Shown here piece after piece: positions 28,473 through 30,316 of a DNA stretch of 64,000 bases (its first letter is position 1; each line of letters begins with the position of its first letter). This stretch comes from Pseudomonadota bacterium (GTDB taxonomy: Bacteria > Pseudomonadota > Alphaproteobacteria > UBA2136 > JAPKEQ01). A program made the position numbers and the translations under genes. The notes beneath the pieces were generated by a model that ran no database searches, was not told the DNA's origin, and saw only the letters and a program-made list of their open reading frames with translations. The stretch is from the NCBI GenBank assembly GCA_036141575.1, contig JAYZXF010000008.1, positions 1-64,000 of the forward strand, written 5' to 3'.

Positions 28473-28504
28473 AGAAAAGCCCCTCAAGTGAGGGGCTTTT
28501 TTAG
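28473..28504. terminator. Bidirectional terminator between sod and the metal operon
   Basis: AAAAGCCCCTCA / TGAGGGGCTTTTTT hairpin with T runs on both strands between converging genes. Confidence 0.85.
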
Positions 28505-28511
28505 GGCTTGA

Positions 28512-28895
28512 TTACAGGAGAATCTTTGCAGCAAGGAAGGCAAAGAAGAACCCGGTGCTATACACAACCCAAGAGAAGATCAGTATGGCAATACTGATCT
28601 TTCTAAGTCTTGCGCAGGCTTTAGCTTGTTTTGGGTCTGCAGGACAAGGTGCATTGCGCGCTTTGTACTGCATGAGGCTTGCAAGGCAGAGCATCACAAA
28701 CGCACCTCCAAAAACGGCACCTTTATATTTACTCAAAGCAATCAACCATGGAAATGTGCTAACGAGCCCTGCAAGAGTTGCTCCCATTCCAAGTGTCACC
28801 ATCAGGGCAGGGAGTGCGCAGCACACCAAGGTTCCTGTAGAGGTGAACAAACTAAGAGTGGGTAACCCTAAGCTTTTTAGGTTAATGGGTTTCAT
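28512..28895 (-). CDS. MerT-like small membrane protein, putative metal importer
   Basis: 127 residues from ATG at 28895 (GGAGAG upstream; overlaps the end of the HMA gene by 14 bases). Three hydrophobic segments: about 20-45, 58-77 and 98-122. The first has a vicinal Cys25-Cys26 pair and the cytoplasmic loop has Cys84 and Cys94, the same layout by which MerT passes Hg(II) across the membrane. Together with the exported HMA protein just upstream (MerP-like) it forms a MerP/MerT-like pair. There is no merA or merR nearby, so the metal may be copper or another thiophilic ion. Confidence 0.65.
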   Translation of the reverse strand: MKPINLKSLGLPTLSLFTSTGTLVCCALPALMVTLGMGATLAGLVSTFPWLIALSKYKGAVFGGAFVMLCLASLMQYKARNAPCPADPKQAKACARLRKISIAILIFSWVVYSTGFFFAFLAAKILL

Positions 28896-29190
28896 TGCAC
28901 TCTCCAGTCTCTTTACGGATGGCTGTCGCTGTGTAGCCTGCATCAGTCATTTCTTGTGTGAGGCGCTCATCGGACATAATTTCAATGCCATCAGCAAAGC
29001 AAAGCTCTACAACGCCGTTATCAAGGTCTACCTTTGCGTGGTGAGCACCGTTTTCTTCTACAAAGACTTTTTCAACGGCTTGGGCGCAGAAGTCGCAAAC
29101 CAGTCCATTGACATCAATTGTAATTTTAGTATCTGCAAATGAAGCCATAGGCAGGAGAGCTGTTGTCATAATAAGTGTTTTAAGTTTCAT
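28882..29190 (-). CDS. Exported heavy-metal-associated (HMA) domain protein, MerP-like
   Basis: 102 residues: signal peptide (1-19, ending SFA), then an HMA domain with the metal-binding loop NGLVCDFCAQAV (Cys32, Cys35) in place of GMTCxxC, followed by the expected beta-alpha-beta-beta-alpha-beta pattern, ending DAGYTATAI. A short tail carries one further Cys and His (GECNETH). It is likely a periplasmic metal carrier that feeds the MerT-like protein whose gene overlaps its end. Confidence 0.85.
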   Translation of the reverse strand: MKLKTLIMTTALLPMASFADTKITIDVNGLVCDFCAQAVEKVFVEENGAHHAKVDLDNGVVELCFADGIEIMSDERLTQEMTDAGYTATAIRKETGECNETH

Positions 29191-29205
29191 GAGTATTTAT
29201 CCTTT

Positions 29206-29844
29206 TTAAAATCTGTGAATGTAGTTCAGCATGGCTTTGCCGGTATCAAGCTGTACGCCAGCTTCAAGCATGTCTCTGCCTTTAAAGAAACGCACCAGTG
29301 GCGTTGCCGTAAAGGTTTCGTCTATGTCATCTGGGCGGTGGTCTACTTGCAGCATCAGCCATGTATGTAGGTCACCGTAGTCACCAATGTATGGCGCAAT
29401 ACCAATGCGGCCTGTTTGGTGAAAACTGCTGCCTTTTGTGGCCACAGCTTCAACGTGAGCTTCATAAGAGACAAAGTGACGTCTGGTTTCCCAATCCGTG
29501 GCAAAGGCAAGGCTACCTGCTGGATCAATATCGGCTTCTTTAGAAGAAATGCCTGCAAAGGTTTTCAGGTAAAAATTGGCCTGAGATCCTTTTTTATTGA
29601 TGCGCTTGAGCAGGTGATTCACTTGGATACCGCCAAGGTGTGTGTTGTCATCTTGTTGATTTTCGTAACGTACACCAATGCTCTTTTTAAACGTTGGTGA
29701 GTAATGCACATGAAGTGATGTGCGATCAGCGTCATGCATTTGCATGACAGTCCAGCCGCCAGGGTATGAGACTGGGCGAGCATATGCGCTAAGGCTTACA
29801 ACACTTGCAAGAAGCGCATAGGTACATAGTTTTGTTTTATTCAT
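29206..29844 (-). CDS. Putative outer-membrane beta-barrel protein of the metal operon
   Basis: 212 residues. Signal peptide (1-22, ending AYA), then alternating amphipathic strands (HVHYSPTFKKSIGVRYE, LHTWLMLQVDHRP, MLEAGVQLDTGKAMLNYIHRF) and a C-terminal Phe, all typical of small barrels. It carries several His residues but no Cys. No named family recognised. The gene sits between the Cys-containing exported protein and the HMA gene, 15 bases before the latter, and may provide an outer-membrane route or sensor for the same metal. Confidence 0.65.
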   Translation of the reverse strand: MNKTKLCTYALLASVVSLSAYARPVSYPGGWTVMQMHDADRTSLHVHYSPTFKKSIGVRYENQQDDNTHLGGIQVNHLLKRINKKGSQANFYLKTFAGISSKEADIDPAGSLAFATDWETRRHFVSYEAHVEAVATKGSSFHQTGRIGIAPYIGDYGDLHTWLMLQVDHRPDDIDETFTATPLVRFFKGRDMLEAGVQLDTGKAMLNYIHRF

Positions 29845-29894
29845 AGGTTTAAATCCTGTTTAAGTTTGTTTTAAAAGACTAAAAACAGGGGAGG

Positions 29895-30281
29895 CTAGAT
29901 ACGGAATCTCTGTGTTGTGAGATAAATTGGAGGGGCGTGAATATCAATGCTATCTGCAGCAAGAACAAGTTTTGCACCCTTAGAGGATGTATGTTCACCC
30001 CATTGTTGTGGAGCATGCATAATTGCTTGTGGCAGATCTGGCAGTTCAAGAGTTTGAAGCGTACCGTCACTTAGGCCTTTTTCTGCAAGGGATTGAATAT
30101 TACACAATGTTTGTGCATGGCTGATTTGTTCATCTGTTGCTACCTGATGGCAATCTGGCATATCAGCCGCAACTGTTGCTTCAGTTGCAATGCGTGCTTC
30201 AGAGCATGGTTGAGCAAAGCTTAACGTATTGCTAAGTAGCAATACAAAGAGTGTTAATACGTTGATCCATGTCTTATACAT
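29895..30281 (-). CDS. Small exported Cys/His protein, first gene of the metal operon
   Basis: 128 residues. Signal peptide (about 1-23, ending SFAQ); the mature part has three Cys (Cys26, Cys44 and Cys60) and His residues near them (MPDCHQV, SHAQTLC), so metal or disulfide binding is plausible. It resembles the short DUF2946-like proteins that accompany copper genes, but the match is weak. The ATG at 30281 lies only six bases from a good -10 element, so its mRNA may be leaderless. Confidence 0.55.
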   Translation of the reverse strand: MYKTWINVLTLFVLLLSNTLSFAQPCSEARIATEATVAADMPDCHQVATDEQISHAQTLCNIQSLAEKGLSDGTLQTLELPDLPQAIMHAPQQWGEHTSSKGAKLVLAADSIDIHAPPIYLTTQRFRI

Positions 30282-30285
30282 ATTT

Positions 30286-30316
30286 AAAGTATGGTACTTT
30301 TTTACTACTTTTTCAA
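30286..30316 (-). promoter_or_regulatory. Metal-operon promoter with overlapping palindrome
   Basis: Minus strand: -35 TTGAAA (30311-30316), 17-base spacer, -10 CATACT (30288-30293). AAAGT-ACCAT-ACTTT (30286-30300) is a perfect inverted repeat covering the -10. The predicted start point coincides with the ATG at 30281. Confidence 0.55.

Follow-up and report, generated by a model that had tools for sequence, protein, structure and literature searches.

A four-gene envelope operon headed by a candidate CutF-like copper sensor with a predicted leaderless start in an alphaproteobacterium

Introduction

Among the closest described systems is CutF-CutO-CutG of Rhodobacter capsulatus, in which, according to PMC9973294 and PMC8456105, binding of copper to the nascent CutF protein delays export and opens up a stem that masks the Shine-Dalgarno (SD) sequence of the next gene. 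The operon analysed here lies in a window of 64,000 nucleotides (the whole stretch of DNA under study, contig C8 of the 1.85-Mb genome G000) and shares with the Rhodobacter system a small exported Cys protein encoded first, a C-terminal proline motif and a copper context. A short intergenic stem over the SD of the next gene is also seen in the window, although it is found in 2 of 16 loci only. The downstream gene for a multicopper oxidase is replaced here by genes for a barrel, a heavy-metal-associated (HMA) protein and a MerT-like protein, and the first protein of the window (P1) differs from CutF in lacking a CxxxC motif and in its predicted leaderless start.

CruR-BfrG of Bordetella pertussis likewise involves an exported upstream open reading frame (uORF) that heads a copper operon and carries a RAPP-like motif, whereas CruR (PMC9426467) is a DUF2946 protein with a CXXC motif, a 162-bp intergenic region, Rho termination and repression by copper, opposite to CutF. 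The MerT and MerP proteins of mercury operons have in common with the present set the pairing of a MerP-like HMA protein with a MerT-like protein whose Cys pairs lie in helix 1 and a loop; the window set differs in the lack of merA and merR, in the presence of the barrel and P1, and in that no MerT or MerP family cut-off is reached. Copper efflux operons controlled by CsoR or CueR use the same sensors that adjoin the module in several of its loci, but their output is CopA/CopZ, in contrast to the barrel, HMA and MerT-like proteins of the module. Abstracts, sections and passages from the open part of PMC showed no comparable copper operon that combines MerT with CsoR or with CutF.

Gene set and products

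The ORF list and the sequence place four contiguous genes on the minus strand between 30281 and 28512. The first (30281-29895) encodes P1, an exported protein of 128 aa with three Cys and a C-terminal HAPP motif that is a candidate CutF-like copper-sensing uORF. It is followed by genes for a β-barrel protein of outer-membrane type (29844-29206; 12 strands, 212 aa with signal peptide), a periplasmic, MerP-like HMA protein (29190-28882; PF00403, 102 aa, GLVCDFC motif) and a MerT-like inner-membrane protein (28895-28512; 127 aa). The P1 and barrel genes are separated by 50 nt and the barrel and HMA genes by 15 nt, and the HMA and MerT-like genes overlap by 14 nt. All four ORFs of the original prediction are confirmed and treated as one operon, which itself has no merA, merR or P-type ATPase gene, and inspection by eye of the window's ORFs at 22-37 kb showed neither merA nor merR. 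The proposed spread of the products across outer membrane, periplasm and inner membrane is likewise supported.

Behind the operon, a perfect inverted repeat between A and T runs (28475-28502) is by eye a candidate bidirectional terminator, shared with a convergent gene that we take to be sod; the repeat does not appear in the list of the motif scan that covered the promoter. The gene upstream of P1 (30305-32161) is on the same strand and ends 23 nt before P1, so that read-through into the operon is possible. An Rfam comparison gave no match near a gathering score.

The AlphaFold model of the barrel has 12 strands at a pLDDT of 91.1, and signal peptide and closed barrel fold together place the protein among outer-membrane β-barrels. 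A structure search (VIA) returned autotransporter barrels at Z up to 17.7 (rmsd 2.4 over 180 residues) and KdgM at Z 16.6, with KdgM/NanC-type porins among the neighbours; these neighbours support the fold only and imply no function. For the window barrel, Pfam gives nothing at E ≤ 1 and NCBIfam nothing meaningful, and among 20 aligned barrels weak matches were found to PagL in five and to a generic barrel model in four. A named, solved family was considered for the barrel and rejected, as generic barrels alone were matched, and a missing match of this kind proves nothing.

The HMA protein matches PF00403 at 27.4 bits (gathering score 24.8, E 4.6e-6), with C32 and C35 of its CxxC motif invariant, and scores 29.6 bits against the MerP equivalog TIGR02052, below the cut-off of 92.55. 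MerT proteins have three helices, with a Cys pair in the first and two Cys in the loop between helices 2 and 3. The MerT-like protein shows this architecture: its model has helices at residues 7-44, 58-80 and 88-126 (mean pLDDT 76), and C25 and C26 (CC, helix 1) and C84 and C94 (helix 2-3 loop) are invariant. The window protein is unmatched by the MerT family PF02411, which matches 4 of 20 members (best E 7.8e-5), and reaches 15.8 bits against the MerTP model with its cut-off of 180, scores that suggest at most a distant relative.

Conservation and copper context

The MerT-like protein is present in 10 of 61 relatives, the window's own genome counted, and in 20 of 385 genomes of the class. The barrel profile was found in 19 of the same 385, and 17 of these also carry the MerT-like gene, which makes the set a conserved module; the order barrel, HMA, MerT is kept in nearly all barrel loci fetched. 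A sample of the phylum yielded 4 of 398 genomes, one of them outside the class. At one locus (L083 in G152) barrel and HMA genes stand with a CsoR gene and no adjoining MerT gene, preceded by a gene for a second HMA-like protein, so that the barrel-HMA pair can exist without a neighbouring MerT. As to plasmid spread, the barrel of G252 had no match by tblastn among 72,556 plasmid records.

The CsoR and CueR families answer copper excess. Genes of the CsoR family or resembling CueR stand next to 8 of 25 loci. In G333, G190, G739, G152 and G166 the neighbour of the set is a CsoR-family gene, each time with a CsoR-type box at the promoter, and in G739, G152 and G190 it is the only CsoR found in the genome; a CueR-like gene is adjacent in G207, G322 and G013, the copy of G207 scoring over the CueR family cut-off. 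In G429, a genome outside the class, genes for a TolC-like protein, a multicopper oxidase (PF07732), CusF (PF11604), the barrel, the HMA protein and MerT stand in a row. These regulators and the G429 operon support the copper of the original prediction, and the metal of the module is probably copper. Searches of the window's own genome gave neither a CsoR (threshold 1e-5) nor a CueR match (threshold 1e-8), and copper specificity there is therefore argued by analogy.

Signals for other metals are found near some loci. A perfect box that we take to be Zur-like (TGTTATAATATAACA in L043 of G336, TGTTATATTATAACA in L044 of G025) lies about 84 nt upstream of P1, between P1 and the gene of a divergent TonB-dependent receptor. 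L055 (G207:C33) has a distant paralogue of MerT that lacks a barrel and is divergent from a Fur-family gene.

Promoter and start of the operon

A sigma-70-like promoter, TTGAAA-N17-CATACT (30316-30288, minus strand), leaves 6 nt before the ATG at 30281, and no SD core precedes this start. Taken by itself, the promoter match is no better than chance, as a 2-kb scan gives 3 sites and shuffled sequence a mean of 3.0; it is regarded as more than chance because the same arrangement recurs in diverged relatives. Of 21 first genes whose starts were chosen, 16 have a -10 element 4-9 nt before the start (p < 0.01), a count in which the GTG start of L057 was picked with the promoter in view. When all early starts, that of L057 included, were scanned alike, such an element was found in 11 of the 19 first genes as against 8 of the 122 controls, the controls being further candidate first genes of these loci (Fisher p = 4.8e-7), and in none of 49 later operon genes. 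One sigma-70 matrix was used throughout; L014 and L046 are not part of the set of 19, and L038 is counted there as failing because its true start lies beyond the scanned stretch, while with that start none of 4,000 random positions scores as high. A promoter of this kind is absent in five AT-rich loci (L043, L044, L045, L049 and L013). An SD core at -16 to -5 is lacking in all 21 first genes, while 15 of the 17 barrel genes behind P1 have one. Promoter spacing, the -10 scan and the SD counts agree with the predicted start point on the first ATG, and the predicted leaderless operon message, with its 5′ end at or beside the P1 ATG, is supported by this comparison across loci. Leaderless transcripts are not rare in alphaproteobacteria; in Zymomonas they account for 119 of 2,675 TSS-gene pairs (PMC7566282).

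The palindrome AAAGTACCATACTTT (AAAGT-N5-ACTTT), which had been pointed out as covering the -10 element, is real (30286-30300) and otherwise unremarkable. The pattern has 5 copies in the 1.85-Mb genome versus 15 for a reversed control pattern, was not seen in the relatives' loci, and inverted repeats with 6-bp arms lie near most starts examined, so the palindrome is not special, and the candidate role as an operator was rejected.

The first gene as a candidate copper sensor

Published filters for CutF-like proteins (PMC9973294) are a length of less than 150 aa, a signal peptide, PP in the last 15 residues and a same-strand gene within 1000 nt; a Cys metal motif, CxxxC or a Cys variant of it, also belongs to the profile, and the genes lie directly ahead of copper genes. 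The window copy of P1 passes the four filters with 128 aa, a signal-peptide-like start (judged by eye), PP at 117 and a 50-nt gap to the barrel gene; it ends in DIHAPPIYLTTQRFRI and carries C26, C44-H45 and C60, without CxxC or CxxxC. The description of the first gene product as an exported Cys protein was right, and its match to the published CutF-like profile had been overlooked. Among 16 readable P1 copies, 15 have Pro-Pro in the last 15 residues and 13 have CxxC or CxxxC, with an identity of 12-26% to the window copy. Where present, P1 is always the first gene, heading the set in 17 of 25 loci compared. Pfam gives nothing for the window P1 at E ≤ 1, DUF2946 (PF11162) included; that profile reaches a single one of 15 P1 rows, with no better than E = 0.031. 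From these sequence features P1 is a probable CutF-like copper sensor.

P1 and an adjacent copper regulator are nearly exclusive across the 25 loci, with both at one, P1 only at 16, the regulator only at seven and neither at one (Fisher p = 1.3e-4, or 3.5e-4 once three near-duplicates are collapsed). This comparison counts the G322 locus as L084, omitting L048 at a contig edge of the same genome, and also leaves aside L053-L056 (no barrel) and L085 (a weak barrel match with no HMA or MerT). A concatenated tree indicates about four changes each for P1 and for the regulator, too few independent pairs for significance, and joins L047 and L084, a P1-bearing and a regulator-bearing row, as sisters with strong support.

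At L013 and L049, P1 is preceded by presumed genes for a small membrane protein resembling MerC and for a cation-diffusion-like protein, and at L013 a presumed ABC ATPase gene lies beyond the MerC-like gene, hinting at a wider metal island.

The intergenic region between P1 and the barrel gene can form a stem in which the 5′ arm CCTGTTT (29883-29889, minus strand) pairs with the 3′ arm AAACAGG (29855-29861, minus strand), which includes the barrel SD AACAGG. The unpaired probability of this SD is 0.01 versus a shuffled mean of 0.37 (p = 0.020), and G004 has a 13-pair form of the stem (p = 0.005). These are the two of 16 loci in which an SD-covering stem is significant; it is not so in the other 14, nor over all loci together (combined p = 0.28). 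Family-wide sequestration of the SD, suggested by a cruder comparison of median unpaired probabilities (barrel 0.19, HMA 0.56, MerT 0.42), was rejected on this stricter shuffle test and is retained for the window and G004 alone. At L037 and L042, terminator-like hairpins with short T runs lie right behind the P1 stop, without a stem over the barrel SD, and may be an attenuation variant of the P1 switch.

Mechanism, transport direction and alternatives

The reading that we prefer, to which we would give an even chance as a whole, is a copper-induced envelope detoxification module with a leaderless start and a P1 sensor of the CutF kind. Transcription would begin at or next to the P1 ATG and yield a leaderless message, and P1 would act as an exported sensor whose Cys and His residues bind copper during translation and export. 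Bound copper would slow the ribosome at the C-terminal Pro-Pro motif, and the slowed ribosome would keep the stem open and expose the ribosome-binding site of the barrel gene. Excess copper would thus switch the operon on, a task that CsoR- or CueR-like regulators would perform in relatives without P1. Cu(I) would then pass by thiol exchange among the MerT-like protein, the periplasmic MerP-like carrier and the dedicated outer-membrane barrel, the net effect being most likely removal of copper from the cell.

The outfit of the carrier genomes bears on the direction of transport. At 1e-30 a Cu-ATPase match is missing from 12 of 23 carriers, which makes cytoplasmic import hard to rationalise, and 10 of the 23 lack both such a match and a heavy-metal RND pump over cut-off, among them G152, G190, G739 and G207, where the operon still has a CsoR or CueR-like neighbour; these counts cover Cu-ATPases and heavy-metal RND pumps, and some genomes are incomplete. 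Loss of the Cu-ATPase was rejected as a signature of carriers, since the gene is present in 11 of 23 carriers versus 26 of 54 other genomes. The window's genome has one Cu-type ATPase, CcoI-like, after CcoP-, CcoG- and CcoH-like genes in a cco cluster, and two heavy-metal RND genes over cut-off, so that the operon is not its only candidate. One of the RND genes (G000:C1:59248-62364; TIGR00914, 1553 bits) is interrupted by a single in-frame TAA, which reflects either recent decay into a pseudogene or a mistake in the assembly. Compared with import, a role in outward transport or detoxification would fit the excess sensors better. Against it, known MerT proteins are importers, and no energy source for export is visible. 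A bolder version, ATPase-free export of Cu(I) by a MerT-type protein working outward via the MerP-like carrier and the 12-stranded barrel, driven interchangeably by CsoR, CueR or a leaderless, translation-coupled uORF, is rather unlikely.

Uptake of copper or another thiophilic metal, the route first proposed for the operon, would mean that metal enters through the barrel, travels on P1 and the HMA protein and is imported by the MerT-like protein for cytochrome oxidase assembly via the CcoI-type ATPase, with P1 of the CruR kind and off at high copper. The CcoI-type ATPase in the cco cluster of the window's genome and the TonB receptor divergent from the operon in G025 and G336 are in line with this, as is the import of Hg(II) by known MerT proteins. 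The window HAPP also resembles the RAPP of CruR, which the P1 of G004 has itself, and CruR represses a TonB transporter operon in Bordetella (PMC9426467). Uptake nevertheless appears unlikely, and unsupported, because the adjoining CsoR- and CueR-like regulators respond to excess and not to shortage and because the 12 carriers without a recognised Cu-ATPase have none to use cytoplasmic copper; the stem over the barrel SD, moreover, suits the CutF kind and not the Rho mechanism of CruR.

It is similarly improbable that P1 is an ordinary periplasmic copper-binding protein and no sensor, with control by the promoter palindrome or an unlinked regulator. An exported protein with Cys and His residues, a window copy without CxxC or CxxxC and a stem that is not family-wide would all suit such a role, but P1 is always the first gene, keeps its Pro-Pro end in nearly all copies despite otherwise very poor conservation and is largely missing where CsoR or CueR adjoin, and the palindrome is unremarkable. 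A zinc or mixed-metal system with copper control in some lineages only is very improbable, for although presumed Zur-like boxes lie beside the divergent TonB receptor in G025 and G336 and a Fur-family gene lies near the distant MerT paralogue of G207, all recognised regulators directly adjoining the barrel set are CsoR- or CueR-like, the boxes are closer to the TonB gene than to P1, and the G207 paralogue has no barrel.

Significance

The module brings with it an outer-membrane barrel to which the libraries searched give no family name. The exchange of CsoR or CueR for a CutF-like first gene at its head is a natural experiment in transcriptional versus translational copper sensing, and the predicted leaderless start would make P1 an uncomplicated example of a leader-free sensor ORF. 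For the 10 of 23 carriers without a recognised Cu-ATPase and RND pump, the module may be their means of surviving copper.
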